DNA from: a virus
Virus record (IMG/VR): IMGVR_UViG_3300048835_000830
Span: 1 to 64,000 of that record
Strand: one strand, 5' to 3'
DNA: 64,000 bases
In this document: piece after piece, positions 3,486 to 61,638 of the stretch
Position numbering within the stretch: the first letter of the stretch is position 1
How the letters are laid out: each line of letters begins with the position of its first letter
Notes under the pieces: generated by a model
What the model saw: only the letters and a program-made list of their open reading frames with translations
What the model was told of the DNA's origin: nothing
The model's database searches: none
Made by a program: the position numbers and the translations under genes

Positions 3486-4321
3486 TTAACCTTCGGTGGG
3501 CCCCTTTCCCCGGGTCAGATGTCGCCAGCTACAAGGTCTACCGCAGCATGATCGGTTTCAGGGCGCTTGCGGCACTGCCATCGGCTCTCGTCGGCAAAAC
3601 CCTCTCCCTGAAACTCAACGGCGGCTCGACGCAAACCATAACGTTCTCCGGCACGGCGAGCGCGGTCGATCAGATAAATGCCGTTCTCACGGGCGGCAAG
3701 GCTTTCGCGTCAAACGCCGACAGCGCTTATTTTTTCGTGCGCTCGAATATCAGAAGTGCGCCGGGCTCTGTGCAGATCACGGGCGGGACCGCGTTGGCCG
3801 ATCTTCAGCTCACAGCGCGCACGATCACGGAAAAATCAGAGGATCTTCTCGTTGCCGAAGTCGATGCGCTTGAGGACCCTGAGGAAATGGTCGAGTGGGC
3901 CGATTCCGACGGAGTTCCCGAGGATTTCTATGCGATCGTAACGGTCGATAGCTTTGGCAATGAGAGCCTGAAGACGAGCTATCGGCAGGCGGTCGCCTAC
4001 ACCGGCGCCGTCTGTGTCCTTGAAGGTATCGTGACTGATCTTCAGGGTGTGCGGTACCCGGACGCCGAGATCTCAATACAGCTTATCCGCTACCCACAGG
4101 CTCAGGGAAAGGTTCCGCAAATTACGCGGCACAAGCTCCGCTTTCTCACAGGGCCGGACGGTCGCTTTTCGGTTCCGGTCCTCCAGGGGGCCCTGATACA
4201 GTTTGAAATAAAAGAGGTTCAATTCTCACGCGAAATCGAAGTGCCCTACCTCGCCTATCAGTTTCTGACTGATATTCTGGTGGACCTTGATTATCGCTAT
4301 CCCTTGGAGTACCGCGAATGA
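3482..4321 (+). CDS. Fibronectin type III-like structural protein
   Basis: 279 residues with GTG start in a GTGA overlap. The N-terminus (WAPFPGSDVASYKVYRS) and residues near 145-165 (FYAIVTVDSFGNES) are the two ends of a fibronectin III-like fold, with a domain inserted between them that contains LNGGSTQTITFSG. The last 100 residues look like a carboxypeptidase-regulatory or Ig-like beta sandwich. Such domains decorate phage tails and bind surfaces. It overlaps the portal gene by 4 nt. The specific role is unknown. Confidence 0.7.
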   Translation: MINLRWAPFPGSDVASYKVYRSMIGFRALAALPSALVGKTLSLKLNGGSTQTITFSGTASAVDQINAVLTGGKAFASNADSAYFFVRSNIRSAPGSVQITGGTALADLQLTARTITEKSEDLLVAEVDALEDPEEMVEWADSDGVPEDFYAIVTVDSFGNESLKTSYRQAVAYTGAVCVLEGIVTDLQGVRYPDAEISIQLIRYPQAQGKVPQITRHKLRFLTGPDGRFSVPVLQGALIQFEIKEVQFSREIEVPYLAYQFLTDILVDLDYRYPLEYRE

Positions 4322-6348
4322 CCAACCCACAGGAACGCCTGGCCGAGCCCTCGCTTGCCCTCGGAGACATGAGGGGCCAGCGGTATCCAAACCAGTTCTT
4401 TGACCTCGCGCAGCAGTACATGCCGCCGACGATCAAGGAGCTTTTCCGCTGGTGCACCTACTACTACTACAACAGCCCCCTCATCGGGGCTGCGATGAAG
4501 AAGGTTTCGCGGTACCCGATCACAGACCTTATCATCGAGGACGACCAGGAGAGCAACCGTAACGTCTGGGACAAGATTCTCAACAAAGAGCTTTTCATCA
4601 AAGACAAGCTCATGGAGATTAACCTCGACTACCATACTTACGGCAACGCGTTCGTCAGTATCCACTTCCCTTTCACGCGGTTTCTCGTCTGTAAGGAATG
4701 TCGCAACAGCCAGCCTATTCGCCAATGGGACTGGACGTTTCGCGGGGCCGACTATCAGTTCTCGGGGACCTGTTCACGCTGCAACCACACGGGGCAGGTG
4801 ACCGTAAAAGACGTCCCTTATCGAAGTAGAAAAGGGATCCGGATAGTCCGCTGGAACCCTGAAAATATCCACATCAAGTTCAACGAATATACGGGCCGCT
4901 ACATCTATATGTACTCGGTGCCCGGAAAGCTTCGTAATGCCATCCTTCGCGGCGACAAGGACATCATCGAGGACATTCCCATCATCGTCCTTGAAGCTCT
5001 TAAAAACCGCCGGATGATTCGCTTCAACTCAGATAACATCAAACACCTGAAAGCTCCGACACTGGCTGAGCAGGACCAGGGCTGGGGCAAGCCTGCAATC
5101 ATCCACGTCCTGAAGGATATGTATTACCTCTATACCCTCAGGCGTGCGCAGGAAGCGATTGCGATGGAGCATATCGTCCCCTTCGATATGATCTACCCGC
5201 TTCCAAACGCGCAGCAGGACCCCTACATTCATACGGACCTTGCCAGCTGGCGGCAGCAGGTTGAAAACGTCATCACAAAGCACCGCCGCGATCCCAACTT
5301 CAAAGGTGTTATCCCTATCCCGATTGGCTTTGGGCGACTTGGTGGTGACGGAAAAGCGCTCCTCCTCGCGCCTGAAATCAACTACATCACGCAGACAGTT
5401 GTCGGTGGGCTCGGGCTTCCGCAGGAGTTCCTCTTTGGTGGTCTCAACTGGACAGGGTCGAGCGTTTCGCTTCGGACGCTCGAGAACGACTTTATCCAGA
5501 ATAGAAGCCAGCTTCTTGATTTTACTCTTTGGCTGAAAGACAAGCTGCGCACATGGCTCAACCTCTCTGACGTAAAGGATATCCGGTTCTCCGACTTTCG
5601 TATGGCTGACGATATTCAAAGGAATCAGCAGCTCATCGGGCTTAACGCTCAGCGGAAGATCAGCGACCAAACTCTTCTCACAGAACTCGGCTACGACTAC
5701 GAGTCGGAAACCAAAAAACTTATCGAAGAGCAGCATGTCCAGAACTACATCATGGATCTACAAAGCAAATCAGGTGCACGCTCGCAGGGTGAGGCCTCGC
5801 TCATTCAGTTTAATTATCAGCAGACACTTCAGGAGCTTTCCGAGAAGGCCCAGGTGGCTGCACAGGAGCGGGCTCAGAGGCTTGGGATTCCTGGTCCCCT
5901 CGATCAGCCAACTGATCCAAATGCACCCGGCGGCGGTGACCCCTCTGCAGGCGGACCTGCCGGCCCTGGAGGCGGAGCTGGAGGGGGCGCACCCGGCGCT
6001 GCTACGGCTCAAGGCCTGCCGGGCACAGCAGGTGGAGCGGCTGCCGGCGGCAAGGAAGACAAGGCTCTTGGTCAGCAAATCGACTCGAAAGTCGATTCCT
6101 GGGCTCGCCAGTTGATGAGCCTTTCGCCCGGTGAAGCCGCCCTTACGCTCTCCGAGGTGAAACAAAAAATGCCCGAGGTTGGTCAGCGTATCGAAACCCG
6201 TCTCAATCAGCTGCGCGCTGAGGGCTCGGGCGAAGCCGCGCCGATGCAAGGTGGTGCAGGCTCTCCCACGCCAGCGCCCAGTGGTGGCGGCGTAGGCATG
6301 GACCCTTTGCCTGAGCAGAAGGTTCCGCGGCGGCAGGGAGCGGTTTAA
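4318..6348 (+). CDS. Portal protein with zinc-finger insertion
   Basis: 676 residues. It is expected to form the dodecameric portal ring through which DNA is packaged and to which neck and tail attach. The N-terminal 450 residues show portal features: a helical start (QFFDLAQQYMPP), an alpha/beta body, and the segment GGLGLPQEFLFGGLNWTGSS that resembles the stem/clip part of phage portal proteins. Two CxxC pairs (C125/C128 and C152/C155) form a zinc ribbon inserted in the body. The C-terminus has a glycine/alanine/proline-rich linker at about 530-590 followed by helices. It sits in a coupled series with the preceding structural genes. The portal call rests on pattern recognition. Confidence 0.8.
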   Translation: MTNPQERLAEPSLALGDMRGQRYPNQFFDLAQQYMPPTIKELFRWCTYYYYNSPLIGAAMKKVSRYPITDLIIEDDQESNRNVWDKILNKELFIKDKLMEINLDYHTYGNAFVSIHFPFTRFLVCKECRNSQPIRQWDWTFRGADYQFSGTCSRCNHTGQVTVKDVPYRSRKGIRIVRWNPENIHIKFNEYTGRYIYMYSVPGKLRNAILRGDKDIIEDIPIIVLEALKNRRMIRFNSDNIKHLKAPTLAEQDQGWGKPAIIHVLKDMYYLYTLRRAQEAIAMEHIVPFDMIYPLPNAQQDPYIHTDLASWRQQVENVITKHRRDPNFKGVIPIPIGFGRLGGDGKALLLAPEINYITQTVVGGLGLPQEFLFGGLNWTGSSVSLRTLENDFIQNRSQLLDFTLWLKDKLRTWLNLSDVKDIRFSDFRMADDIQRNQQLIGLNAQRKISDQTLLTELGYDYESETKKLIEEQHVQNYIMDLQSKSGARSQGEASLIQFNYQQTLQELSEKAQVAAQERAQRLGIPGPLDQPTDPNAPGGGDPSAGGPAGPGGGAGGGAPGAATAQGLPGTAGGAAAGGKEDKALGQQIDSKVDSWARQLMSLSPGEAALTLSEVKQKMPEVGQRIETRLNQLRAEGSGEAAPMQGGAGSPTPAPSGGGVGMDPLPEQKVPRRQGAV

Positions 6349-6566
6349 TGTATACGACAAGAAAATTTGTAAAGCGGTTCAACCTCAATGACAAAGAGGA
6401 CTGCGCAGAGTACGAGGCGATCCTGAATAACCCAAACGCGCAGATCCTCGACCGCATCAAGGAAAAAATATCGAATCGGGAGATGGACCCGGACACAGGG
6501 CGCATCACCTCGATTCAGGATCACTTGGAGCTGGTGGTGACATGGCAGGAAAGAACATTGCTCTGA
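6348..6566 (+). CDS. Small hypothetical protein downstream of portal
   Basis: 72 residues, highly charged and helical. Its ATG overlaps the portal stop by 1 nt (TAATG), and its end overlaps the next gene by 25 nt. No family is recognised; coupling to the portal implies a role in head assembly or structure. Confidence 0.65.
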   Translation: MYTTRKFVKRFNLNDKEDCAEYEAILNNPNAQILDRIKEKISNREMDPDTGRITSIQDHLELVVTWQERTLL

Positions 6567-6784
6567 AAGCGTTTGAGGAAAAGCTCGCTGCGGGCATGGC
6601 TGAGGGCCTTATGATGCCTCTTCACTGGTACAAGCGAACGAGCAAAAGTCCTCTTTTTAAACTCAAGCAGAAGGCGGCGCTTGGCACCATCGCTGCTGGA
6701 GGCGGTCTTTACGGACTCGGAAAGCTTACCGATTCGCCTGAGGTGAAGCCTGTTCAAGCGGGCGGCGGCCCGCGGAACTACTGA
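6542..6784 (+). CDS. Small hypothetical protein with hydrophobic glycine-rich segment
   Basis: 80 residues. An amphipathic N-terminus (LKAFEEKLAAGMAEG) precedes a basic stretch and a hydrophobic glycine-rich segment (LGTIAAGGGLYGLGKL) that may be membrane-associated. It ends just before the 6809-6832 palindrome and is the last gene of the first plus-strand block. Function unknown. Confidence 0.65.
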   Translation: MAGKNIALKAFEEKLAAGMAEGLMMPLHWYKRTSKSPLFKLKQKAALGTIAAGGGLYGLGKLTDSPEVKPVQAGGGPRNY

Positions 6785-6794
6785 TGGGCATAGC

Positions 6795-6832
6795 TAAAAA
6801 AATGAGAATGCGCCCTGGGATCCCAGGGCGCA
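6795..6832 (-). terminator. Intrinsic terminator (24-nt perfect palindrome)
   Basis: Positions 6809-6832 are a perfect palindrome with 12-nt arms (TGCGCCCTGGGA). Read on the minus strand it is followed by TTCTC and a run of seven T (plus positions 6797-6803). It therefore best fits as the terminator of the minus-strand gene ending at 6850; it may also block readthrough of the plus-strand block. Confidence 0.75.
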
Positions 6833-6849
6833 CCGATGCGCAAACCTTC

Positions 6850-7380
6850 TCAGTTTACAAACGACCGTTGTGCGTACGGCCTGTCAGCGGGGTAAGCCAT
6901 GAGATTGTCCTGGACGGAACCACCTGATGGCCTTGCTCTTGGCGGCCAGGACTGCTGGCTCGCATACGCCGTACCCTGCGCAGCTGCTTCAGTCTCTGAC
7001 ACCATTCCGCTCTTGTCACGGAAGATGATGTCACCGGTCGCCGCAGCTTTCTTGACCATTCGCATGCCGATCGAATACCCAAGAGCGGCAAGCGCATCAC
7101 GGAGCGCTGTTGCTATAAAATCAACCCAGAACTGTCGTGAAAATACAGCCCTTCCGATACCGACGAAGAAGTCCTTCACAACTCGCCACGCGCGTACCAC
7201 AAAGTTCGGCTTCGATCCGCCGCTTGGCGATTTCCGCTGCTGCGCCCCGGGGGAATCGCGGAATGGGTTTCCACCCGTCTCTCCCGCAAAACCCCCGAAA
7301 GGGTTTCCACCGGGCGCTTTTGAAAAAGGACTATCGTGGTCAGACGAAACTTCAGCTTCAAATTCAGCGTTAATCGACAT
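6850..7380 (-). CDS. Hypothetical protein, glycine/proline-rich N-terminus and hydrophobic helix
   Basis: 176 residues on the opposite strand from the structural genes. The ATG is preceded by AAGGAAGG at good spacing. The first 60 residues are disordered with repeats of GGNPF; residues about 65-110 are an amphipathic-to-hydrophobic region (VVKDFFVGIGRAVFSRQFW); the tail is disordered. The opposing-strand frame (6899-7492) is rejected because this one has the better ribosome-binding site and a terminator. Function unknown. Confidence 0.65.
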   Translation of the reverse strand: MSINAEFEAEVSSDHDSPFSKAPGGNPFGGFAGETGGNPFRDSPGAQQRKSPSGGSKPNFVVRAWRVVKDFFVGIGRAVFSRQFWVDFIATALRDALAALGYSIGMRMVKKAAATGDIIFRDKSGMVSETEAAAQGTAYASQQSWPPRARPSGGSVQDNLMAYPADRPYAQRSFVN

Positions 7381-7531
7381 GGCTTGCCTTCCTTGTGTAA
7401 AGCCAGTTCATTCAGAAACAACTCATCGGAAAGAAAAGGTGATTTTTCACGAAAACTACTCTAGTTTGTCTATAGAACCCCTTTCAAAGTGAAAAGTTAA
7501 ACGCTCCGCCAGGAGGCTTATATCAACTTCT

Positions 7532-10500
7532 ATGCGAAATTTTGACGCCAAACAGCAAACTGAATCGGTGAAGAGTGCTGCGGTAAATGCCGTCCGATCG
7601 ATTTTTCCGGTGACTGGGCGAATCCGCACGATGAAGCTTGATAACGTCTGGACCGACGACAAAGCCGCTCCGGACGACTTTTCCGGCCAGGCAAAGACAA
7701 AGCTTCGTGAGGGGACATGGGGGGTTCCTGTGTACGCCTCGCTGTCACTCGTCGAAAATTCGACAGGAAAAGTGATTGACCGCGCGGAGAAAGTGAGGCT
7801 CTTTCTTCTTCCAACGGCAACGGCGCGCTCGTCGTATATCGTCGCCGGCAACGAGTATCAGGTGAACAACCAGCTTCGCCTGCGCTCTGGCGTCTACACG
7901 ATAAGGAAGCAAAATGGACAACTCAAAACCCAAGTTAACCTGGCACGAGGAAGGAACTTTGACCTCGCGTTTGATGAGAGGAGTGGTGTCTTCACCATCC
8001 AGAAAATCGGCGGGGGTCAGACGAATATTCCTCTTTATCCTATTCTTACTCATCTCGGCGTCTCTCCTGTACTCATGGCTCAAACCTGGGGTTCCAAACT
8101 AGAGGCGGCCAACAAAAATACTGATCCGAAAGCGGTGCAGCGTGCTGAAACCGCGTTCGGGGTTAAAAAAGATGGTCTCAGAGAGTATTTTGGAAAAACG
8201 TCTCTGCCGGCGGATACGACGAAACTGGTGCTTGGGACTTCGTTTGAGAGGGTCGATGGGCCAATGCTCTTGGCCGCGTCCAAAAACCTTCTTGATGTGC
8301 AGCTTGGAAAAAAAGAACCCGTGGACAGGGACTCCCTCGCGTTTAAAGAAATCCATAGCGTGGAGGATTTCATAGCCGAGCGTCTTGAAAAGAACCGCAC
8401 AGAGCTGGAGCGCAAGATCCGAAGACAGGTCGATAACCCGCGCCGTGTGAAGATAAGCCAGCTCGTAAACCCGGCCGCGTTCTCGTCTACGGTCGAGGGG
8501 TTTTTCACGCAGGACGACAAGGCGGCAACGCCCGAGCAGACAAATCCCCTTGAGATGCTATCCGGCGGACACAAGGCGACTTTCATGGGTTCGGGCGGGA
8601 TCACATCGCGCCATGCAATCAAAGACGAGATGCGGCAGGTCCACCCTTCGCATTACGGTTTCATAGACCCCGTCCACACGCCTGAATCAGAACGAATAGG
8701 CGTCAACCTCCACCTTCCAATGGGCGTGATCAAGGACGGCAAGAATCTTAAGGCCATCCTGAAAAATGCAAAGACGGGGCAGCCTGAGGCTCTCACGCCA
8801 ATTGAAAGCTGGGAGAAGTACGTGGCTTTTCCGGGGCAAAAGGGCGATACGGTCAAGGCCCTCTACCGCGGGCAGATCGTTATGGTGCCCGTCTCCAAGG
8901 TGGATTACTTCACGCCAACCGCCGAGGCCCTTTTCTCTCCATCGACAAACCTTGTCCCCTTTCTTCCCTCAAACCAGGGGAACCGGGCGATGATGGCCTC
9001 GAAAATGCTGGAGCAGGCCATCGGCCTTAAGCACCGGGAGGCGCCGCTTGTTCAAGTCGGAACTTCAACCGGCCAATCCATGGAGGAGGTCGTCGGGCGC
9101 CAGGTGGCGATTCGTGCCCCTGAAGAAGGCACTGTAAAAAAGGTTGGCGAGGACGAGATCGTTCTTACGACGGCTGGAGGTGATCGGAAGATTAGCCTCT
9201 ATAATAACTTCTCGCTCAACCGGAAAAGCTTTCTCCATCATACGCCCGTGGTCAAGGTCGGGGAGCGGGTGAAAAAGGATCAGCTCCTCGCGGAGAGCAA
9301 TTTTACAAAAGGCGGGACGCTGGCGCTCGGCACAAACCTGCGCGCCGCATATATTCCCTACAAGGGCTACAACTTCGAGGACGGGATTGTAATCTCGGAG
9401 TCTGCGGCTGAGAAGCTCACGAGCGAGCACATACACAAAAAATCCTACGCGGTAACACCCCAGTCAACTCTCGACAAGGGGCTTTTCCGGCTGAACTACC
9501 CGGCGCTCCTGAGTCCGGACAACGCCTCAAAAATTGGTTCTGATGGCGTTATCAAAAAAGGTTCGCGCGTCCGCTCGGGTGATATTATCATCGCAGCAAT
9601 GGAGAGGAAGAATCGGGATGCTCAGATCGCGGTTATCTCCAAAACCCTCGCGGATAGACCGCGGGATGCCAGCGTTCGCTGGACGGGCGAGGACGAAGGC
9701 GTTGTCACTGAAGTGGTTAAAGTTGGGGGAACGATCACGGTCTTCATACGAACCGAGGAGCGCGCAAAGATCGGCGACAAGCTCTCGGGACGCATGGGGA
9801 ACAAGGGCATCATCACAAAAATCCTCCCCGATGGACAGATGCCGAAGGATGCTGGAGGCGGAGCTGTCGATATCCTCCTCAATCCTCACGGAGTTATTGG
9901 ACGAATCAACATTGGTCAGATCTACGAGTCTGCTGCAGGCAAGGCGGCTCTCAAAGCTGGGGCTCCATACAAGGTTCAAAACTTCACAGGACAAAACTAT
10001 CTTGGCACAACTCGAAAGTTTCTTAAAGAAAACGGGGTGTCTGACAAGGAAGAACTTTTTGATCCTTCGACTGGCAAAAGCCTCGGTCAGGTGCACGTCG
10101 GAAACCCATACATCCTGAAGCTCTTCAAGCAATCGGCCGGCAACTTCTCGGTTCGCCAGGGCGGACCTGGGATGCCGTATGACAGTAACCTTCAGCCCCT
10201 GAAAACAGGCGGCGAGGAAGGCTCAAAATCGCTCGACCTTCTGACGATGTATTCGCTCCTCTCCCACGGGGCGCGGGCAAACCTTCGTGAGATGAGCTCG
10301 CTGAAAGCGAACGTCAACGACGAATACTGGAAGGCACTTCGTAGCGGCCAGCAGCTGCCGCCGCCCAAGGCCCCGTTTGTATTCGACAAATTCATGGCCT
10401 ATCTGAAGGGGGCCGGCATCGATGTCCAAAAGGAGGGGACCAAACTCACGCTTGCCCCTCTCACGGACGCCCAGATCGAAAAGATGAGCAGCGGCGGCGT

Positions 10501-13500
10501 GCAGAAGGCGCACTTCTATCACGCCAAGGACTTTCAGCCCGTCAAGGGCGGGTTTTTCGATGGCAAGATCTTCGGCGGCCTCAAGGGAACCAAGTGGGGC
10601 CATCTTGAGCTGAAGGAGCCCGTCGTAAACCCGGCGTTTGAAGAGGCAGCGAGAAAACTTCTCGGGCTCTCGGGGAAATTTGACGAGATCGTTGCAGGAA
10701 AGCTTTTCGTTAAACCTGACGGCAGCCTCACGACCGAGCATACGGGCGTCACCGGCGGCGCGGGAATCGAAACACTTTTAAAGAAAATGGACGTCGACGC
10801 GGAGCTTAAGAACCTTACGCGAAAAGCGCAGAATGCGACTGGCTCGAAGCTTGACGACATGAACAAAAAGCTTCGCTACCTATCGGCGCTGAAGCAGACA
10901 GGTCTTCGTCCTGAAGAGGCCTACATCCGAAGAAAGCTTCCGGTGCTGCCTCCCATCTATAGACCCATCTACCCACTGCCAACGGGCGAGGTGGCGACAT
11001 CCCCCGTGAACGATCTTTATCAGAACGTGGGCGTCGTCAACACGGTGATGAACCTTCCCGTCATGGACCTGCTTTCGGAGGATGCGAAGGCTGATGTCCG
11101 CGCCGATCTTTATAAGCACGTGAAGGGTGTCGTCGGTCTTACGAATACGACCATGAAAGGAAAGCCGAAGGACGGCCTTATAGCCGAGATCAAGGGCGGC
11201 ACGGGTGGTCAGCCAAAAGAGGGCTTCTTTATCAGCAAGCTCCTCTCAAAGCAGCAGGACTATGTCGGCCGCGGGACGATCATCCCTGAGCCCTCGCTTG
11301 GCGTCGATGAAATGGCGATGCCCGAGCCTATGGCGTGGTCGCTCTTTGAACCTTTCGTCGTGCGCGAGCTTCGCAACTTCGGACTGAACCCCCTCGACGC
11401 GAAAGAGGCCATCAAGAAGAAAACGCAGACTGCGCGCCGAGCACTCGATAATGTCATGAAGCAGCGGCATGTTCTTTTGAATAGAGCCCCTTCGCTGCAT
11501 AAGTTCTCGATCATGGCATTTAAGCCCAAGATCACCGACGGCAAGGCTATCAAGATCCCGCCTCTTATCGTTCAAGGATTCAATGCTGACTTCGACGGCG
11601 ATACGATGACGGTTCACGTGCCGATTGGAGATGAGGCCAACAAAGAGGCCGAGCGGCTGAAGCCCTCGCGCAATCTCTTCCAGCCGGGGTCGGGCAAGCT
11701 TATGATTCAGCCCTCCCAGGAGGCGCAGATTGGGCTTTTCTACCTTTCAAAAACGCCGGCTGGCCGCCAGAGCCTCAATCGCTTTCTGCCTGAGAAATAT
11801 AAGGTCACGGGTGTCCTTGATAAAAAGGCGACCGGGGCTCTTGTCATGAAGCTTTCAAAAGAGCTGCCGCCGCAGGACTATGCGAGTATCGTCGCCAACC
11901 TCAAGGCCGAAGGTGAAAAGCACGCATACGAAAGAGGCTTTACACTTGGTCTTGAAGACATTGCGCAGTTTGGGACGATCCGTGACAGGGTGGTCGAGAG
12001 TGCATCCAGAGCCGCTGCGGCGACCACCGACCAGGCCCGGCTTATGGACGTCAACAAGCGCGCGGCGAACCTTATCGACAAGGTCATCGAGAAAAAGCTC
12101 GAAGGGAAAGACAATCCGCTTTTCGATATGGTCCGCTCAGGGGCGCGCGGCAACTCAAGCCAGCTCAGGCAGATCGTGGCGACCCCTCTTTTTATGAGCG
12201 ACGAAAAGGGCCGCATTATCCCGACCCCAATAAAAAAATCCTACGCCGAAGGCCTGGACGTCGGCGATTACTGGATCAGCATGTACGGGGCTCGTCGAGG
12301 CATGATGGATAGGGCGATCCAGACCTCGCTGCCCGGGGCCTTTTCAAAAGACATCATGGCGACCACAATCGGAAACGTCATATCAAAAGAGGACTGCGGA
12401 ACGAAAGAAGGGGTCGCTCACAAGATCGAGGACACCGATGTCTACGACCGCTTCCTCGCGGGCGATCAGGGCGGCTTTTCTCACAATACCCTGGTTGACA
12501 CGAAGGTGGTCAACGAGCTGAAAAAACGCGGTCTTTCAAGCATCAAGGTCCGCTCGCCACTTCGCTGTCTTGCCCCAAAAGGCACATGCGCGAAGTGCTA
12601 TGGCCTCGACGAGCACGGTCACATGCCTGAGATAGGCGAGAACATCGGTGCCAAGGCAGGCCAGACGATAAGTGAGCCGCTGGTGCAGATGGTGATGCGA
12701 ACTTTCCACACGGGCGGGGCTGCCGGCACAGGGGCCGACGTTCAGGGCTACGCCCGGATCGATCAGCTTCTTCAGATGCCAAAGCAGGTCGCAGGCGCTG
12801 CGCCACTTGCCCCGGTCGATGGCCGGGTGACAAAGATCGAAAAGGGTCTTGGTGGCGGCTTTGTCGTGACGATCGGTAAAGACACAAAGGCGCATGTTCC
12901 TCAGGGCAAACCTCTTCGCGTGCAGGTGGGCTCGCAGGTCAGGCGTGGTGAGCCGCTTTCTGAGGGGCCTATCAAGCCCCAGGATCTCGTGAAACACCTC
13001 GGGATGGACGCCGCCCAGGACTACCTCGCCACCGAGCTCAAAAAGAGCTACGAGGGCCAGGGGGTCAATCTCCACAAAAAGATTTTTGAGACCGTTGTGC
13101 GGTCCATGGGCAATACGACCCAGGTGCAGAACGCTCCCAAAGGGACGGGTTATCTTCCGGGGGATGTGATCCCCTATACGGTGGCCCAGCACCACAACAA
13201 AAACCTCGCCCAGGACGTGCCGATCGAAGAGAGCCTCGGCTTTAAGCTCGCCGAGTCTGCCGGAGGCCTTCGCGCGGGGCACGAGATGACCCCTGAGGAC
13301 ATCTCCCGGCTTTCGGCCACGGTGAAAACGGTTAAGATTCAAAAGGATCCCATAGTTCATGCGCCACTTCTCAAATCCGTGCGCAATCTGCCTCTTTTGA
13401 GAAAAGACTGGATGGCTGCTCTCGGCTATCAGCAGCTGCAGCGCGCGCTGACGACCGGGGCCTCGCAAGGCTGGAGCACGAATACGAGTGACTACCATCC

Positions 13501-13558
13501 GATCCCGGCGTTCGCCTACGGAGCGGAGTTTGGCAAAGGCAAGGAAGGGAAATACTGA
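7532..13558 (+). CDS. rpoBC: Single-chain multisubunit-type RNA polymerase, beta and beta-prime fused
   Basis: 2,008 residues combining the two catalytic double-psi beta-barrel subunits of cellular-type RNA polymerase. Beta region (about 1-970): HPSHYGFIDPVHTPE at 371, a SNQGNRAMMASKM fork-type motif, GYNFEDG at 612-618, and KIGDKLSGRMGNKG from 746. Beta-prime region (about 975-2008): the catalytic NADFDGD at 1351-1357 with its three Asp, the second zinc site with all four Cys (C1622, C1679, C1686, C1689), and MRTFHTGG at 1722-1729. The N-terminal beta-prime zinc site is absent: the sequence runs from GKIFGGLKGTKWGHLEL with no cysteine. Separate bacterial beta plus beta-prime total roughly 2,750 residues, so this is a compact version. 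No alpha, omega or sigma gene is visible here. An AGGAGG lies 15 nt before the ATG, unusually far. It presumably transcribes phage genes independently of the host enzyme; its place among structural genes suggests it may travel in the virion. Confidence 0.95.
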   Translation: MRNFDAKQQTESVKSAAVNAVRSIFPVTGRIRTMKLDNVWTDDKAAPDDFSGQAKTKLREGTWGVPVYASLSLVENSTGKVIDRAEKVRLFLLPTATARSSYIVAGNEYQVNNQLRLRSGVYTIRKQNGQLKTQVNLARGRNFDLAFDERSGVFTIQKIGGGQTNIPLYPILTHLGVSPVLMAQTWGSKLEAANKNTDPKAVQRAETAFGVKKDGLREYFGKTSLPADTTKLVLGTSFERVDGPMLLAASKNLLDVQLGKKEPVDRDSLAFKEIHSVEDFIAERLEKNRTELERKIRRQVDNPRRVKISQLVNPAAFSSTVEGFFTQDDKAATPEQTNPLEMLSGGHKATFMGSGGITSRHAIKDEMRQVHPSHYGFIDPVHTPESERIGVNLHLPMGVIKDGKNLKAILKNAKTGQPEALTPIESWEKYVAFPGQKGDTVKALYRGQIVMVPVSKVDYFTPTAEALFSPSTNLVPFLPSNQGNRAMMASKMLEQAIGLKHREAPLVQVGTSTGQSMEEVVGRQVAIRAPEEGTVKKVGEDEIVLTTAGGDRKISLYNNFSLNRKSFLHHTPVVKVGERVKKDQLLAESNFTKGGTLALGTNLRAAYIPYKGYNFEDGIVISESAAEKLTSEHIHKKSYAVTPQSTLDKGLFRLNYPALLSPDNASKIGSDGVIKKGSRVRSGDIIIAAMERKNRDAQIAVISKTLADRPRDASVRWTGEDEGVVTEVVKVGGTITVFIRTEERAKIGDKLSGRMGNKGIITKILPDGQMPKDAGGGAVDILLNPHGVIGRINIGQIYESAAGKAALKAGAPYKVQNFTGQNYLGTTRKFLKENGVSDKEELFDPSTGKSLGQVHVGNPYILKLFKQSAGNFSVRQGGPGMPYDSNLQPLKTGGEEGSKSLDLLTMYSLLSHGARANLREMSSLKANVNDEYWKALRSGQQLPPPKAPFVFDKFMAYLKGAGIDVQKEGTKLTLAPLTDAQIEKMSSGGVQKAHFYHAKDFQPVKGGFFDGKIFGGLKGTKWGHLELKEPVVNPAFEEAARKLLGLSGKFDEIVAGKLFVKPDGSLTTEHTGVTGGAGIETLLKKMDVDAELKNLTRKAQNATGSKLDDMNKKLRYLSALKQTGLRPEEAYIRRKLPVLPPIYRPIYPLPTGEVATSPVNDLYQNVGVVNTVMNLPVMDLLSEDAKADVRADLYKHVKGVVGLTNTTMKGKPKDGLIAEIKGGTGGQPKEGFFISKLLSKQQDYVGRGTIIPEPSLGVDEMAMPEPMAWSLFEPFVVRELRNFGLNPLDAKEAIKKKTQTARRALDNVMKQRHVLLNRAPSLHKFSIMAFKPKITDGKAIKIPPLIVQGFNADFDGDTMTVHVPIGDEANKEAERLKPSRNLFQPGSGKLMIQPSQEAQIGLFYLSKTPAGRQSLNRFLPEKYKVTGVLDKKATGALVMKLSKELPPQDYASIVANLKAEGEKHAYERGFTLGLEDIAQFGTIRDRVVESASRAAAATTDQARLMDVNKRAANLIDKVIEKKLEGKDNPLFDMVRSGARGNSSQLRQIVATPLFMSDEKGRIIPTPIKKSYAEGLDVGDYWISMYGARRGMMDRAIQTSLPGAFSKDIMATTIGNVISKEDCGTKEGVAHKIEDTDVYDRFLAGDQGGFSHNTLVDTKVVNELKKRGLSSIKVRSPLRCLAPKGTCAKCYGLDEHGHMPEIGENIGAKAGQTISEPLVQMVMRTFHTGGAAGTGADVQGYARIDQLLQMPKQVAGAAPLAPVDGRVTKIEKGLGGGFVVTIGKDTKAHVPQGKPLRVQVGSQVRRGEPLSEGPIKPQDLVKHLGMDAAQDYLATELKKSYEGQGVNLHKKIFETVVRSMGNTTQVQNAPKGTGYLPGDVIPYTVAQHHNKNLAQDVPIEESLGFKLAESAGGLRAGHEMTPEDISRLSATVKTVKIQKDPIVHAPLLKSVRNLPLLRKDWMAALGYQQLQRALTTGASQGWSTNTSDYHPIPAFAYGAEFGKGKEGKY

Positions 13559-13938
13559 TGCATGCATTTTGGAACGGCTTTGAAAAGCGGGCTTACGACT
13601 ACGATTACGAGGCTCGTGTTCTTAAAAAAGAGCTCGAAGAATCAGCGCAGAAAAAACCGCTGTCGAAACTAAAAGGAGGTCTCGTCGGAGCTGGTTTAGG
13701 CGGGGTTACGGGGGCTCTTTTCGGTGCCGCGGACCGCGCTGTCCCTGGGGCTTTTGCCGGAGGTGCGGCCGGCTTGGCTGTCGGCGGGCTGGCCGGGGTC
13801 CTTAGGGCGATCGCCCAGAAGCGGGGTATCGAGGAAGCCAAAAGAGTTCTCGCCATGCCTCCAAAAGAACAGAAGGAATACCTCCGCTATCTTGCGCGAA
13901 CGGGCGAAGACGAAGAGCTTATGCTTGGCACCATTTGA
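13558..13938 (+). CDS. FEKRA-tagged glycine-zipper protein
   Basis: 126 residues. The ATG shares its A with the RNA polymerase stop (TGATG). The N-terminus MHAFWNGFEKRA is the tag shared with several other genes here. Residues about 40-85 are a glycine/alanine-rich hydrophobic stretch with GxxxG spacing (GLVGAGLGGVTGALFG), typical of glycine-zipper membrane or assembly segments. The C-terminus is charged and helical. Its function is unknown; coupling to the polymerase suggests a partner or packaging role. Confidence 0.8.
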   Translation: MHAFWNGFEKRAYDYDYEARVLKKELEESAQKKPLSKLKGGLVGAGLGGVTGALFGAADRAVPGAFAGGAAGLAVGGLAGVLRAIAQKRGIEEAKRVLAMPPKEQKEYLRYLARTGEDEELMLGTI

Positions 13939-13960
13939 ATCTTCCGGAGGAGAAACGGTA

Positions 13961-15391
13961 ATGCACAGCTTCTGGCTGGGTTTTGAGAAGAGAGCCAAAC
14001 TAAAAACCACAACCAAGCTGGAGCCGCAGCAGATCCGCGTTCAGCAAAGGCTCGGTAAAAAGCCGGGCGTTCTTGTCTATCACGGCCTTGGAAGCGGCAA
14101 GACGCTCACCTCCCTGGCCGCGACGCAAGGTGACGAAACCGATGTCGTTGTACCAGCGGCTCTTCGTCAGAACTATGCGAAAGAGGTACAAAAGCATACG
14201 ACTGGCCACAAGCCGAACATCATGAGCTACGAAAAGGCCGTGAAGACGCCACCTACGGGCCACGCTCTTGTGGTCGATGAGGCCCACATGCTCGGTCGCA
14301 CCGACAGCAAGCGGACTCAGGAGATGATTCAAAAGGCGCGCGATTACGACAAGCGGATTCTTCTCACAGGCACTCCTATCCGCAACTACCCGCACGAGAT
14401 CGGCCCTCTTATGGCCATGGTGCGTGGCGATACGAAAATACCGTCCGACCCCAAGGCCTTCGACAAGGCCTTCATAGCAGAGGTCATGAAAAGCCCCGGA
14501 CTCCTGGCCCGAATCTTTCATGGGGCAAAACCAGGGGTCGAGTACAAAATCAAAAACCCCGAGCGCTTCGCTGATCTCGTGAAGGGCTATGTGGACTATC
14601 ACGCGCCGGCGCGGGAGAACTTTCCCGCTGTGAGCCGCGAGACGATCCAGGTCCCGATGAATGCCGAGCAGATGAAATATTACGACTTCGTCCTCGACAA
14701 GGCAGGTCCTGGGCTTCGTTATAAGATTCGTCGAGGCTTGCCGCCAAACAAACAGGAGAGCAAGTCGCTCAATTCCTTCCTTTCCGGACCGCGGCAAATA
14801 TCAAATAGCACGAGAGGGTTTGGGGGAACGGAGACTTCTCCAAAAATTCAGCGGGCGATCGACGAGTTCCAAAAACGTATGCAAAAAGACCCTAACTTCA
14901 AGGCGGTCGTCTACTCAAACTACCTCGATTCCGGAGTGAAGGAATATGCGCGACATCTTGCCAATCTTGGTGTTCCACACGCTGTATTTGACGGGACACT
15001 CTCTGATGCGAAACGAAAGCAAGCGGTGGAGGATTATAATGCCGGACGAGCAAAGGCCCTCCTCATCTCTGGCGCAGGCGCTCAAGGCCTGGACCTCAAA
15101 GGCACAAAATTGATGCAGCTTTTGGAACCGCACTGGAACACCTCACGGCTGGAGCAGGCTGAGGGCCGGGGCGTCCGCTTTAAAAGCCATGAGCACCTTC
15201 CGCCGGAAGAGAGGAATGTCCATGTTCAGAAGTTCCATTCGACCGTTCCAAAAACCTTCCTGCAGAGAGTTTTACGCAGGAAAGCGGACTCTGGTGTGGA
15301 TGAGTACCTCGACATGCTCTCGGCGCAAAAGGATGCTCTGAACGACCAGTTTTTGAATATTCTCCGTGAAAAAGGAAGCGAAAAGCCATGA
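13961..15391 (+). CDS. FEKRA-tagged SF2 helicase resembling D6/NPH-I viral transcription helicases
   Basis: 476 residues. I start it at ATG 13961, which has GGAGGAG upstream and begins with the tag MHSFWLGFEKRA; the open frame extends further upstream but those codons lie out of frame inside the previous gene. SF2 motifs in order: Walker A GLGSGKT at 42-48, DEAH at 106-109, LLTGTPIRN (motif III), GAGAQGLDLKGT (motif V) and EQAEGRGVR at 398-406 (motif VI). The wording YHGLGSGKT and LEPHWNTSRLEQAEGRGVR...SHEHLPPEER is strikingly like the D6/D11 family helicases that act in transcription of large eukaryotic DNA viruses. It lies directly behind the RNA polymerase. A role in transcription initiation, termination or template handling is inferred. 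Confidence 0.88.
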   Translation: MHSFWLGFEKRAKLKTTTKLEPQQIRVQQRLGKKPGVLVYHGLGSGKTLTSLAATQGDETDVVVPAALRQNYAKEVQKHTTGHKPNIMSYEKAVKTPPTGHALVVDEAHMLGRTDSKRTQEMIQKARDYDKRILLTGTPIRNYPHEIGPLMAMVRGDTKIPSDPKAFDKAFIAEVMKSPGLLARIFHGAKPGVEYKIKNPERFADLVKGYVDYHAPARENFPAVSRETIQVPMNAEQMKYYDFVLDKAGPGLRYKIRRGLPPNKQESKSLNSFLSGPRQISNSTRGFGGTETSPKIQRAIDEFQKRMQKDPNFKAVVYSNYLDSGVKEYARHLANLGVPHAVFDGTLSDAKRKQAVEDYNAGRAKALLISGAGAQGLDLKGTKLMQLLEPHWNTSRLEQAEGRGVRFKSHEHLPPEERNVHVQKFHSTVPKTFLQRVLRRKADSGVDEYLDMLSAQKDALNDQFLNILREKGSEKP

Positions 15392-22229: not shown

Positions 22230-22715
22230 TGTCACCAGGAGGAGCTGAGCGGTGACAAGTGCGGTGACAAAATCCGGGCGTTTTGCGAAATTAAAATCCA
22301 ATAAAATTAAATATATATATCTCTCTCCGAGTCGTTGTCACCATTGTCACCGCTGTCACCGGCATTTTTGGGTAACTATCGCGTGCGAGAATTTTAAATC
22401 GTGTGAGCCCCCACCCCCTCCCCTCCCGTGGGTAAGTTCTCTGATAACGATGTTTTTCGCGTATAGGCTTTCTACTTTTCGGGTTTCACTGGTGCCAGCG
22501 GTGACAAATTTCAAACCCATTGAAATGACTACAAAAAATGTCCGGAAAAGCGTCACCGAAAGTGTCTCCGCAAAAAAGCGTTTGGTGACAAGGTCGGAGG
22601 CGGCTCTGGCACAAGTGTCTGTAATCAAAGAGCTTTGTCTCTTAAAGTGCGTCGAAAGGGCTTGAAAAAACGATGGGAACAATCGGTGACAACGGTGACA
22701 AGCGGATCGGTGACG
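22230..22715 (+). repeat. Cluster of GGTGACA/TGTCACC heptamers (candidate pac site or origin)
   Basis: Exact copies start at 22230 (inverted), 22251, 22263, 22336, 22345 and 22354 (all three inverted), 22500, 22584, 22685 and 22694. Near copies are CGTCACC at 22551 and GGTGACG at 22709. Two subsets are spaced exactly 9 bp apart (22336/22345/22354 and 22685/22694). Random expectation for both strands of this span is well under one. The array fills the intergenic region and continues into the first 15 codons of terL. It contains no convincing gene. Roles to consider are terminase recognition, replication origin iterons or a multi-site operator. Confidence 0.8.
22288..22320. other. AT-rich tract inside the heptamer array
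   Basis: A run of almost pure A/T ending in alternating ATATATATAT, within an otherwise GC-rich genome and flanked by heptamers on both sides. This could be an unwinding element if the array is an origin. The intergenic stretch from 22192 to 22672 otherwise holds only the heptamers and a pyrimidine-rich run near 22410-22430. Confidence 0.6.
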
Positions 22716-27793: not shown

Positions 27794-28045
27794 ATGACAG
27801 AACATCAGTCGAATGACCAGGTCAAAGAACAGAGCGTCAACGCCATAAAGGAGATATTGCAGGACGCCATCGACGACAAGCTCGATGCCATCGCAGTCAC
27901 CGGGATCATGAAGGACGGCAGCACGCGTTTTGCCACAAGCATCGGAACGTGTAGCAAGCTCCACGTTTTGGGCGCCATTGAGATCCTGAAGTCGCAGCTC
28001 GCCGCCAGAATCAAGCTGGGGAGCCCTGACGATGCCGATGCATGA
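27794..28045 (+). CDS. Hypothetical acidic protein
   Basis: 83 residues from ATG 27794, chosen over ATG 27779 because AAAGGAAAGCGC is correctly spaced. One alpha/beta domain with a hydrophobic strand (AIAVTGIMKDG) and helix (LGAIEILKSQLAARI). Overlaps the next gene by 14 nt. Function unknown. Confidence 0.6.
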   Translation: MTEHQSNDQVKEQSVNAIKEILQDAIDDKLDAIAVTGIMKDGSTRFATSIGTCSKLHVLGAIEILKSQLAARIKLGSPDDADA

Positions 28046-28391
28046 AATTCTTATCGACGACGAAGCCCTCCGCCTTCTTTTGCTCGCCAAGGACGATGCC
28101 GGCCTTGGGACGTTCAGCGAGGTCATCCGCTACCTTTATAGGCCGAGGCCGAAAAAGACCGAGCCCGATCCCGAAAAGGAGCGGATTGTGGTGGCCGAGC
28201 CCCTCTTCGGAAAAGGCCACCAGCATTCGGCCTGGGGCGCCGACTGCCCGGTCTGCAAAAACTATTTTTTCGAGGACTGCGATACCATGCCCCTTCCCAT
28301 CGAGGAACGGCCCTCCCGCTGTGACAGCTGCGAGCAGAAAATCCGGCTTATCTATCCGTGGGAGCTGGAGGCGGGCATGCGAATCGGCTGA
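28032..28391 (+). CDS. Ribbon-helix-helix-like N-terminus plus zinc ribbon
   Basis: 119 residues. The first 40 residues (EILIDDEALRLLLLAKDD, then TFSEVIRYLYR) have the pattern of ribbon-helix-helix antitoxin/repressor domains. The C-terminal half has CPVC and CDSC about 30 residues apart, a zinc ribbon. A DNA-binding regulator is plausible. It lies just before a HicA-like gene. Confidence 0.65.
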   Translation: MPMHEILIDDEALRLLLLAKDDAGLGTFSEVIRYLYRPRPKKTEPDPEKERIVVAEPLFGKGHQHSAWGADCPVCKNYFFEDCDTMPLPIEERPSRCDSCEQKIRLIYPWELEAGMRIG

Positions 28392-28482
28392 AAATTCTGG
28401 GAATAAGCTTTTTGGTGGAGTTTTTAGCGGACAGACACAAGGGGAAATCCGCGAAATGAATGGAAATAACGGAGAGAAGGTC

Positions 28483-57933: not shown

Positions 57934-58270
57934 AACCTTCCCCTTCAATCATTCGAGCAGCCCCAAGGTGGTCCTCAAAGACCTGCAGCCCGAGGACATG
58001 ACGCCACATGGAGATCGGCTCCACGATCCACTGGACGTGCTCGGGTTTCTTCTCGTACTCATTATAAAGGCAGCTGAAGTAACGCGGGTGGATCTGAAAA
58101 ATAAGAAGCTTGGGGTAGATGAGCACGCGGTAAGCCGGAACCCCGCGAAGGGCAAAGAAAACCCGGAAGTCCTGTCTTGTTTGCAAAGGAAGGGCAGCCC
58201 ACGGCCGATCCTCGGGGAGGGGCAGCGGGCGGTTAGGGTTGGTCTTACTTTGTCCACGTGGGCCCGACAT
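57899..58270 (-). CDS. Hypothetical protein downstream of DNA polymerase
   Basis: 123 residues; GGAGG at 10 nt before the ATG. Starts inside the end of the polymerase gene (26-nt overlap). Alpha/beta. Function unknown. Confidence 0.6.
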   Translation of the reverse strand: MSGPRGQSKTNPNRPLPLPEDRPWAALPLQTRQDFRVFFALRGVPAYRVLIYPKLLIFQIHPRYFSCLYNEYEKKPEHVQWIVEPISMWRHVLGLQVFEDHLGAARMIEGEGYGVIYRDSRDG

Positions 58271-60122
58271 TCTGCTCGACCTCCATAGGCACGGTTTTAA
58301 GCCACCTGTGAGCCGCCTCCTCCATGAGCTTTTTCTTGACTGGCGCGAAGGAGGGGGAGTCGTCCTTGTGCGTTCTGGTTACAACTTCATCATACACCTG
58401 GTTCATAAATTTGGTCCTGATCCCGTTCTTGCGCGCGTATTGCCGGATAAGCACCATCGCAAGTTTGGTCATTTCCGCATTCATGGCCTGAATCTTAAAG
58501 TTTCCGCCCTGTCGCTCGATTCGGGAGATGAGCCCCTTGTAGGCGAAGTCCTGCCGCCCGCGCGGGAACTTCTCCACGTCGGTCGGATCAGGAAGGCGAT
58601 AGTAGCGGCGACGGCCGAAAAGGTCGCTCACCCAACCTTTCTCAGCAGCCTCCCTCCCCACGGCGCGAAGGTAGTCGATACCCACCGAGAACTCCTGGAT
58701 ATACTTGTCGTAGAGCTCCTGGCCCGTTTCGATGGACATCTGCCGGCCTTCAGGATCGCGGTAGCCCTGGGCATTGATCTGATCGACAAGGGAATAGACT
58801 CCCATGCCGTAGATGATCCCAAAGTTCACCGCCTTGGCCGCATTCCGCAGGTGAGGGTTCACCTTCTTGGAAACCTCGCGGGCAAAGCATTTTGTAGCCG
58901 CGTAGGAGTGAACGTCCACCTTTCTGTTGAAGGCGTCGCGGAGCTGTGGATCGCCCGAGATTTCAGCCCAGATCCTAAGCTCACAGCCGGAAAAATCGTC
59001 CGTTTCAATCAGCTCGTAAGGCTCGCCGTGAAAGCACACCCGCATCTCCAGGTCACGCGGGATATTGAGCGGGTTGAATTTGCCGTCGGTCGCCTTGGAA
59101 GGTCTTCCTGTTTCAGCGCCCATCTGCTTATACATGGGGTGGATGCGGCCCGTGGCCGGGTGCTCGGCGTCGAGGAAGGTTTGACCAAAGTCGGTGATTC
59201 TCTTTTTAAGGGCTCGGTACTGTTTGATGGCATCCACGAACTCGTTGTTTTCTATCTTCAGGAGGGTTTTCTTGCTCGTGTCGTTGAGCGGAACCTGTTC
59301 CCATACGCGGGTCTTACGGTTCTGCTCGGTCTTGGTCACGCCCATCTTTTGCAGAAGCTCCAGGATCTGCTCGGTCGAGGCGTAGTTGATGTCAGGCTTT
59401 CCGAAAAGATCGCTTTGGACGTAAGGCCTCGCCATGACGTCGAGGTAGTTCTCAATATCGAGGAGTTTTTTGAGATTGATCTCCATAAGCTTTCGCCACT
59501 CGGCACTGTTGAGGTAGTGTCCCTCCAGCTCCATTTCGCAAAAGCAGGGAAGCACATCGCACTCAAGAAGCCAGACGTTGGCGAGGTCGTCCCGGAAAAG
59601 GGCCTCGCACTGCTTTTGGGCAAGGGGCAGGAGGAACTTGACGTCGTTGCCGGCGTACTCAATCGACTCGCGGCTGTACTCGCCGTGGATCATCCCCTTG
59701 CCGAAGATCTTTCGCTCCTCCTTTGAAATAACGACATCGAGATAGGAGAGGAGGACGTCGTCAAGACCGAAGCCGTTGAACCTTTTCCCGTTGAAAAGAA
59801 GGTGCTCGGCGAGGAAGGTATCGCGGATATTTTCAAGCTCGATCCCGTAGTTCGCCTTCACCATCTTCCAGTCAAAGGCCATGTTGTGGGCGATTTTTTT
59901 ATGGGAGGTGCTCTCAAAGAAAGGTCTCAAGGGCTCAAGCGAGGCCGTTCGCGTGTCGATGATGTACTGGTCGTCGTAGTTGCCGATCTGAAACATGAGT
60001 ATGGAGTCCACGAGCGGGTCGAGGCCTGTTGTTTCCGAGTCAACACCCCAGGCCGGCTTACCCATGACTGTCGGCAAAAGCTCGTGAACTTCCTGCGTGG
60101 TTCGCAGCAGCTTGACATTCAT
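58245..60122 (-). CDS. Family A DNA polymerase with 3'-5' exonuclease
   Basis: 625 residues; GGAGTCTAA precedes the ATG. The exonuclease domain (about 20-180) has D28 and E30 in GVDSETTGLDP, AHNMAFDW, and a YAGNDVKF segment (DEDDy). The polymerase domain has motif A DFSGCELR near 375, motif B RNAAKAVNFGIIYGMG near 426-441 and motif C QVYDEVV near 574-580. There is no 5'-3' exonuclease domain, as in most phage family A polymerases. It replicates the phage genome; no helicase or primase is visible in the window. Confidence 0.95.
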   Translation of the reverse strand: MNVKLLRTTQEVHELLPTVMGKPAWGVDSETTGLDPLVDSILMFQIGNYDDQYIIDTRTASLEPLRPFFESTSHKKIAHNMAFDWKMVKANYGIELENIRDTFLAEHLLFNGKRFNGFGLDDVLLSYLDVVISKEERKIFGKGMIHGEYSRESIEYAGNDVKFLLPLAQKQCEALFRDDLANVWLLECDVLPCFCEMELEGHYLNSAEWRKLMEINLKKLLDIENYLDVMARPYVQSDLFGKPDINYASTEQILELLQKMGVTKTEQNRKTRVWEQVPLNDTSKKTLLKIENNEFVDAIKQYRALKKRITDFGQTFLDAEHPATGRIHPMYKQMGAETGRPSKATDGKFNPLNIPRDLEMRVCFHGEPYELIETDDFSGCELRIWAEISGDPQLRDAFNRKVDVHSYAATKCFAREVSKKVNPHLRNAAKAVNFGIIYGMGVYSLVDQINAQGYRDPEGRQMSIETGQELYDKYIQEFSVGIDYLRAVGREAAEKGWVSDLFGRRRYYRLPDPTDVEKFPRGRQDFAYKGLISRIERQGGNFKIQAMNAEMTKLAMVLIRQYARKNGIRTKFMNQVYDEVVTRTHKDDSPSFAPVKKKLMEEAAHRWLKTVPMEVEQNVGPTWTK

Positions 60123-60192
60123 TTAGACTCCGAAAATATTAGAGCATAGGATTTTCCAACGAGCTTATACCGCAATCCTGAAAGGATCACGC

Positions 60193-60576: not shown

Positions 60577-60691
60577 GGCCGAAGCCACAGTTATGACAAC
60601 GACAGCGTCGCCTATACCGTTCTTTCGTCTGCCCCCATCTCTCGCGGCAGGCGGAAAAACGTATTTTTTCCTTCACAATACTTATACCCGA

Positions 60692-61636: not shown

Positions 61637-61638
61637 GC

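Follow-up and report, generated by a model that had tools for sequence, protein, structure and literature searches.

Alpha-type assembly platforms are present in all cellular multisubunit RNA polymerases (RNAPs) (PMC7598289). The vRNAPs and nvRNAPs of jumbo phages such as phiKZ and AR9 are two-barrel enzymes of the bacterial type that lack alpha and omega; one set is virion-borne, and they show an association with an Snf2 helicase (PMC7598289, PMC7824862). They are, however, built from four or five polypeptides, are much more diverged from bacterial enzymes than the polymerase described here, and have no sequence-recognisable sigma gene, phiKZ gp68 being sigma-like in structure (PMC13282480). 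Other phage RNAPs, namely crAss-like gp66, YonO, and P23-45 gp64 and gp96 (the last also virion-borne), are single-chain two-barrel enzymes, but they belong to a second, QDE-1-like clade with little similarity to cellular RNAPs (PMC10770324). Closer in kind is mReC (Weinheimer and Aylward 2020, PMC7481178), found on tailed-phage contigs of IMG/VR, whose beta and beta-prime align with those of bacteria yet form a deep separate branch, and whose genes lie near those for portal, tail, and terminase proteins. That paper describes two subunits, mentions fusion for crAssphage only, and leaves sigma unmentioned. In Salmonella phage Arash, gp206 carries beta fused to beta-prime, adjoins the portal gene, and is virion-borne; its beta-prime is split after the catalytic barrel, with the rest encoded by a second gene, gp216 (PMC10585845).

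The window analyzed here comprises the first 64,000 nucleotides of a 166,638-base tailed-phage record (IMGVR_UViG_3300048835_000830), and its features are collected in the table below. Its polymerase lineage is probably mReC: beta and beta-prime occur in a tailed phage with the NADxDGD motif, and the phage clade falls outside the cellular lineages sampled, namely eight bacteria. The mReC capsid marker PF07068 was found in none of 32 records, although this profile matched no control either, and terminase PF03237 was found in 10 of 32, this record not among them. Arash gp206 and gp216 are homologous at 33-34% identity, and Arash shares the sigma family, the Snf2 neighbor, and the GGTATAAG element. 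In contrast to the phiKZ/AR9 enzymes, a single chain is encoded and a sigma-like gene is present; unlike the QDE-1-like enzymes, the chain can for the most part be aligned with the beta and beta-prime subunits of bacteria. The fusion, the sigma link, and the promoter of this lineage appear to be undescribed so far.

Features of the polymerase locus and associated elements (window positions, except for the sigma-like gene, which is given in positions of the whole genome record)
Feature	Position	Strand	Remarks
Portal protein, upstream neighbor of polymerase	4318..6348	+	near polymerase in 61 loci
Single-chain RNA polymerase P0001, beta fused to beta-prime	7532..13558	+	2,008 aa
Beta motif GYNFED	9365..9382	+	aa 612-617; E. 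coli beta E813/D814
Beta catalytic motif GDKLSGRMGNKG	9773..9808	+	aa 748-759; E. coli K1065 and K1073
Beta/beta-prime junction	10415..10486	+	aa 962-985; beta end, predicted hairpin, short helix
Site of absent beta-prime N-terminal zinc ribbon (E. coli C70/C72/C85/C88)	10577..10612	+	absent in 53/53
Beta-prime clamp helices	10997..11140	+	aa 1156-1203; modelled helices 1158-1173, 1183-1201
Beta-prime active-site motif NADFDGD	11582..11602	+	aa 1351-1357
Second beta-prime zinc site C1622, C1679, C1686, C1689	12386..12598	+	kept in 51/53
Beta-prime trigger-loop motif EPLVQMVMRTFH	12674..12709	+	aa 1715-1726
Snf2-type helicase/translocase	13724..15391	+	homologue of Arash gp217, virion protein
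Family A DNA polymerase gene, presumed early	58245..60122	-	downstream of 60164-60171 element
GGTATAAG promoter-like element	60164..60171	-	41 bases upstream of family A DNA polymerase gene
GGTATAAG promoter-like element, second window copy	60681..60688	-	
Sigma-like protein	143,096-143,827		243 aa; homologue of Arash gp10, 35% identity

A compact beta/beta-prime chain

The initial annotation placed all core catalytic motifs of both large subunits in one chain, and the present analysis supports a genuine, compact, single-polypeptide RNAP. The open reading frame begins with ATG and is uninterrupted across its length; Pfam beta domains (Rpb2_6, E=3.7e-56, and Rpb2_3) are followed in the correct order by those of beta-prime (Rpb1_1, _2, _4, and _5), and matches to solved bacterial beta-prime chains reach E values down to 1e-115. 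In E. coli numbering, no substitution was seen among 53 full-length single-chain sequences, that of this phage included, at K1065, K1073, E813, D814, R678, or R1106 of beta, nor at D460/D462/D464, R425, or trigger-loop H936 of beta-prime. These residues include the DxDGD aspartates of one double-psi barrel and the two lysines of the other that mark a two-barrel RNAP (D1353/D1355/D1357, K750, and K758 in chain numbering). The predicted fold of residues 545-1740 (pLDDT 84.4, pTM 0.75) resembles bacterial RNAP, with a beta-prime match at E=4.4e-55. The chain is presumably an active polymerase.

Beta was described as running directly into beta-prime without a visible linker. The order stands: the end of beta lies near residue 965 (GIDV), and beta-prime restarts near residue 986 (SSGGV), while the joint is modelled as an ordered segment of ~20 residues, a predicted hairpin and helix, that replaces the first ~28 residues of beta-prime. 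Cellular beta/beta-prime fusion enzymes share the arrangement of beta directly before beta-prime in one chain, and they have alpha and omega. As had been claimed, these cellular fusions are longer, with 2,890 and 2,839 positions in the models for the Helicobacter and Wolbachia types (NCBIfam NF007172 and NF011417), and presumably they and the phage fusion are of separate origin.

The same fused gene was found in 78 of the 80 loci of a second scan and in most of the 79 loci of the first, and the one-chain gene also occurs in relatives at 34-71% identity from many metagenomes; it is therefore neither a product of chance nor an assembly joint. Fusion is the rule within this phage family, and the enzyme is part of a large phage lineage, with ~476 relatives. 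Thus, the statement that phage polymerases of the multisubunit type are usually split holds for jumbo phages of the phiKZ/AR9 type, but not here. That an assembly or frame error joined rpoB and rpoC, the first of two outcomes named at the outset as fatal to the finding, is next to inconceivable: nothing was seen in its favor, and against it stand the identical fusion in independent assemblies and the sequenced isolate Arash, in which beta likewise continues into the initial portion of beta-prime. As for the origin of split polymerase genes, neither the window nor five split loci yielded an Rfam match indicative of introns, and the ends of the split pieces were not intein-like. The separate-subunit polymerase genes of Cobetia phage Carin-5 and Rhizobium phage RHph_Y65, considered as close kin, led to no IMG/VR relatives.

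The second such outcome was a recent capture of a host polymerase, possibly non-functional. The ready alignment of the chain with bacterial RNAP would be in keeping with this origin; it is nevertheless very improbable. In the tree, a branch with full support (SH-aLRT 100) sets the phage family apart from the eight bacteria, which represent several phyla; across the 53 divergent sequences the catalytic residues are invariant and the beta-prime zinc ribbon is absent; and among 84,980 scanned genomes of bacteria and archaea, a full-length relative turned up only once, on a metagenome-bin contig of 31.7 kb.

Sigma-like protein and candidate promoter

The absence of an alpha-like gene near the polymerase, as first noted, extends to the whole record: profiles for alpha (RNA_pol_A_bac) and omega (Rpb6) had no match in its 166,638 bases or in 30 relatives, while controls matched. 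In contrast, 25 of 31 records carry a gene for a sigma-like protein. In this record, the gene escaped the Pfam profiles for sigma regions 2 and 4 and came to light through its similarity to Arash gp10. The protein of this phage has a weak Sigma70_r3 match, below the Pfam cut-off (E=7e-5), and a weak FliA/WhiG match (E=1.5e-4), whereas Arash gp10 matches FliA/WhiG clearly (E=6.7e-12). The best PDB matches of its structure model, predicted from an alignment without two rows from phage records, are sigma factors, at a pTM of 0.45 and low whole-chain TM-scores (about 0.35). The beta-prime clamp helices, which in bacteria are the docking site of sigma region 2, are retained in the phage chain.

Among all 8-mers, GGTATAAG ranks first in over-representation in each of three genomes, namely that of this phage, Arash, and the relative G003. 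Its copies are distributed between the strands 10:0 in this genome, 30:1 in Arash, and 28:5 in G003, and in all nine genomes the element prefers the strand opposite the polymerase gene, the D69 version being GTTATAAG. Of the 30 Arash copies, 29 lie between genes, at a median of 33 bases upstream of a gene, in a leftward module that is 11% intergenic. A start-like pyrimidine-purine step occurs at a single offset in 83% of 145 element sites. Motif presence tracks sigma similarity among the 30 relatives (AUC 0.89, p=0.0003), but not polymerase similarity (AUC 0.60, p=0.21). The full reading covered six IMG/VR relatives, which had the strongest sigma matches and so do not amount to a blind sample. 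Among the remaining 23 records, the motif is scarce in the majority, the fairly close G001 being one of these.

The strand bias could also arise from packaging or replication signals, and GGTATAAG, a predicted promoter, might instead be a processing, packaging, or origin element. This is quite improbable, considering the placement in Arash shortly before gene starts, the fixed offset of the start-like step, the likeness to a -10 element, and the correlation with sigma similarity. The initial annotation had held that promoter recognition must work differently in the absence of alpha. Instead, the sigma-like gene, together with a conserved element that resembles a promoter in its -10/start spacing, suggests recognition of the sigma type. 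A -35/-10 dyad of the host type was rejected, since the dyads with the strongest enrichment looked like terminators.

Proposed virion packaging and early transcription

The Arash virion proteome contains 128 unique peptides of gp206 (beta and the N-terminal part of beta-prime), 40 of gp216 (the C-terminal part of beta-prime), 38 of gp217 (Snf2), 24 of gp10 (sigma), and 2 of a primase; the particle preparation also had replication enzymes, and a second Arash sigma, gp196, is not mentioned (PMC10585845). Virion packaging of a polymerase of this kind has been published only for this two-piece enzyme of Arash. A one-protein polymerase, a sigma-like factor of the family's own, and a shared start signal suggest a host-independent machine that is probably injected. 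It is considered likely that a virion-packaged, sigma-guided, alpha-free, and catalytically complete single-chain polymerase serves the early genes.

In the proposed mechanism, the covalent tethering of beta to beta-prime would plausibly make the assembly subunits alpha and omega dispensable. The chain would be produced late, alongside structural proteins, and packaged with the sigma-like protein and, in part of the family, with the Snf2-type translocase (its gene is present in only 12 of 31 records), and all would be delivered together with the phage DNA. The sigma-like protein would then dock on the clamp helices and direct the core to early promoters, each comprising the -10-like GGTATAAG, preceded at a distance of ~18 bases by a weak A-rich element, with transcription starting 6-7 bases past GGTATAAG. 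The evidence leans, if slightly, toward the more general proposal that a widespread phage lineage branching outside the sampled bacteria injects such a self-contained, alpha-free machine (a one-chain core, its own sigma, and sometimes Snf2), which would read G(G/T)TATAAG with sigma-70-like -35/-10/start spacing.

A core in one chain, paired with a recognisable sigma and a predicted promoter, would offer a simple, testable answer to how a polymerase dispenses with alpha, and such a core could be expressed as a single polypeptide, with the isolate Arash as a possible laboratory model. The conserved promoter would allow operons and their timing to be predicted for many uncultured phages. Should the branch have the depth that was proposed for mReC, the sigma-promoter pair would inform the age of sigma-type initiation.

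Alternatively, the phage polymerase may be functional but made during infection for middle or late genes, while the host polymerase, which an injected phage sigma-like protein may redirect, would use the early GGTATAAG promoters. Redirection of host RNAP by sigma factors of phages is well established, as in jumbo phages of group 2 (PMC7824862), the Arash TGGTATAAG is similar to an extended -10 element, and for the phage studied here packaging is deduced from Arash. This division of labor is nonetheless judged unlikely: none of the nine genomes shows clear enrichment of the host-like variant GGTATAAT, and the site profiles lack a TTGACA-like element, whereas Arash particles are rich in unique peptides of both polymerase pieces and of gp10, and the same 8-mer is favored across genomes spanning 36% to 61% G+C.

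Architecture of the one-chain polymerase

The fused gene is one open frame of 2,008 codons. Pfam places the beta domains in the N-terminal half and the beta-prime domains in the C-terminal half, in the same order as in cells, and NCBIfam and PDB matches are consistent with this layout. When E. coli beta and beta-prime were aligned with the one-chain polymerase and 52 full-length relatives, beta K1065, K1073, E813, D814, R678, and R1106, as well as beta-prime D460/D462/D464, R425, and H936 (E. coli numbering), were invariant in all 53 one-chain sequences, bearing out the initial annotation, in which all core catalytic motifs of both large subunits were assigned to a single 2,008-residue chain. 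The small size of the chain is explained by the absence of several E. coli segments (e.g., beta 215-296, beta 957-1047, and beta-prime 1093-1167) and of the beta-prime N-terminal zinc ribbon, which none of the 53 full-length sequences has; the second beta-prime zinc site is retained in 51 of them.

The beta part extends to about residue 965, and beta-prime picks up again near residue 986. In an AlphaFold2 model covering residues 545-1740 (pLDDT 84.4, pTM 0.75), the joint comprises short strands at 963-968 and 971-976 followed by a helix at 979-985, which, as modeled, is an ordered, compact connection and not a loose linker, in agreement with the earlier reading of beta directly followed by beta-prime without a visible linker. 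The structural comparison with cellular polymerases proposed at that stage returned bacterial beta-prime chains as the top PDB matches of the modeled region (E=4.4e-55), and clamp helices are seen in the model. In bacteria, sigma region 2 binds the beta-prime clamp helices.

Distribution and ancestry of the fused gene

An IMG/VR scan with the one-chain protein returned 133 relatives, of which 79 were retained: 53 full single chains of <2,260 aa (including one 100% copy of the window's gene), 12 single chains with inserts, and a remainder either split or broken off at contig ends. A second scan, with a beta-prime alignment as query, gave at least 476 relatives; among the best 80 of these, 78 encode beta together with complete beta-prime as one frame, and the other two, apparently one phage, also form one frame if TGA encodes Trp. 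Recurrence of the fusion in these 53 chains and 78 loci speaks against an assembly or frame error having joined two genes. Recent acquisition from a host, the other objection raised initially, is argued against for any sampled bacterial phylum by a branch (SH-aLRT 100) that parts the phage family from eight bacteria of several phyla in a tree of phage and bacterial sequences.

The split loci placed in the tree group together in one clade (SH-aLRT 99) that includes the isolates Arash (a Salmonella phage) and D69. Each of these loci keeps beta and the N-terminal part of beta-prime in one gene; beta-prime breaks off after the catalytic barrel, and a second gene encodes its remainder. A split after that barrel has also been described in jumbo phages and cyanobacteria (PMC7598289). 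Based on published description rather than on sequences, the lineage probably is, or overlaps, the multi-subunit RNAP-encoding Caudovirales (mReC), in whose description a fusion is mentioned for crAssphage only and sigma is not mentioned (PMC7481178). A profile search with the mReC capsid marker PF07068 gave no match in 32 records or in any control.

Twelve relatives have intein-like in-frame inserts at polymerase catalytic motifs, among them sites immediately following NADFDGD and within the trigger loop; most of the inserts have Cys at the start and Asn plus Ser/Thr/Cys at the end, and one polymerase (locus L062) has three. Locus L224 has five TGA codons within its reading frame and L063 has one, inside an intein-like insert; some of these codons coincide with conserved Trp positions, suggesting that the L224/L225 and L063 phages read TGA as Trp. 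One contig with a phage-family polymerase (L119, JAKPDW010000082.1) sits in a Deltaproteobacteria metagenome bin and is probably a misbinned phage.

A promoter-like element and a sigma-like protein

In a k-mer survey, GGTATAAG was the top over-represented 8-mer of the window's genome, with 10 copies, all on the minus strand, against 0.6 expected; nine of the copies lie outside predicted genes. It ranks first in Arash (copies by strand, 30:1) and relative G003 (28:5), second in G002 (15:0), and eighth in G015 (13:4); it is also enriched in G020 (20:2) and G004 (8:1), with weak enrichment in the G012 fragment (3:0), while D69 has GTTATAAG in its place (18:1). The favored strand is opposite to the polymerase gene in all nine genomes. 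GGTATAAT showed no clear enrichment in nine genomes, and the first 50 kb of phage T4 contain zero copies of GGTATAAG. Of the 30 sites in Arash, 29 fall between genes, at a median of 33 bases before an annotated gene. Of 145 sites, 83% have a pyrimidine-purine step at offset 13/14, compared with 4-34% for the remaining offsets, and 36% have AA at -18 from the element, compared with about 6% further upstream. With that purine as the start, the A-rich element would lie near -32 and TATAAG would occupy -12 to -7, i.e., sigma-70 promoter geometry.

Initially, no alpha-like gene had been noticed nearby, and profile searches of 31 records, in which controls were recovered, gave no match to alpha or omega. 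A homolog of Arash gp10, annotated as sigma, is present in 25 of the 31 records, including the window's genome (E=5e-28), where its neighbors, judged by position and sequence, appear to resemble tail and baseplate genes. FliA/WhiG profiles match both Arash gp10 (NF005809, E=6.7e-12) and the window phage's sigma-like protein (TIGR02479, E=1.5e-4), as does Sigma70_r3 (E=9e-9 and 7e-5, respectively). The best matches of the modeled sigma-like protein (pLDDT 84.9, pTM 0.45) are sigma factors, with whole-chain TM-scores that are low (about 0.35), which probably reflects flexibility in how the domains are arranged.

Among 30 relatives, whether a genome carries the strand-biased element tracks how similar its sigma-like protein is (AUC 0.89, Mann-Whitney p=0.0003) rather than how similar its polymerase is (AUC 0.60, p=0.21). 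These genomes are themselves related to one another, the counts were taken from two slightly different searches, and the six IMG/VR relatives covered along their whole length had the strongest sigma matches. G001, a relative nearer in polymerase and not in sigma, is without the element. Copies are few or absent in most of the remaining 23 records, and promoters of these element-poor lineages must differ. A second phage sigma family, encoded close to helicase genes in Arash (gp196) and D69, was not found in the window's genome and perhaps serves late genes.

Virion proteins and a proposed mechanism

Arash particles contain gp206 (beta and N-terminal beta-prime; 128 unique peptides, 3,516 spectra), gp216 (C-terminal beta-prime; 40, 1,210), the Snf2 helicase gp217 (38, 1,148), and sigma gp10 (24, 467), compared with 32 unique peptides for portal, 30 for capsid protein, and 2 for primase; gp196 is unmentioned in this proteome (PMC10585845). 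Spectra per 100 residues computed from these counts (231, 200, 243, and 200, respectively) give a rough hint that the four proteins are present in near-equal amounts. The Arash authors' own explanations were early transcription or carry-over (PMC10585845).

From the observed sequence, homology, and motif, together with the predicted fold, we propose that in the window's phage an active one-chain core and its sigma, in some phages joined by the Snf2 protein, would be packaged and injected; sigma would dock on the core, recognize GGTATAAG-type elements, and thereby start early transcription. No account of such a motif or of a sigma-guided virion polymerase was found among the papers listed in a literature search that covered few subscription papers and preprints, so priority is uncertain. 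The Snf2 gene occurs in 12 of 31 records, and its product may, by analogy, act like RapA, the bacterial RNAP-recycling enzyme, a role suggested for phiKZ-type phages (PMC7824862).

Coordinates of the polymerase, sigma, and element features, and of other genes observed in the window
Feature	Location	Strand	Remark
One-chain polymerase	window 7532-13558	+	
GGTATAAG copy	window 60,164-60,171	-	41 bases before family A DNA polymerase gene
Sigma-like protein	genome 143,096-143,827	+	homolog of Arash gp10
Second sigma, Arash gp196	L003:2507-3544		
Second sigma, D69	L002:1828-2604		
Separate polymerase subunit genes, Cobetia phage Carin-5	L238:1541-5394		annotated sigma gene immediately upstream
In-frame TGA codons	L224/L225, polymerase near 4761-10875		
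In-frame TGA codon	L063, 12353		
Beta-prime split after catalytic barrel	L002, L003, L053, L054, L056, L057, L074, L078		
Intein-like inserts	L009, L013, L040, L050, L051, L052, L055, L061, L062, L064, L076, L082		
Terminase large subunit	window 22673-25690	+	intein containing LAGLIDADG endonuclease domain
ORF, 437 aa	window 28042-29355	+	weak HicA-like domain match
Capsule-synthesis-like and glycosyltransferase genes	window 60692-63585	-	adjoin replication genes
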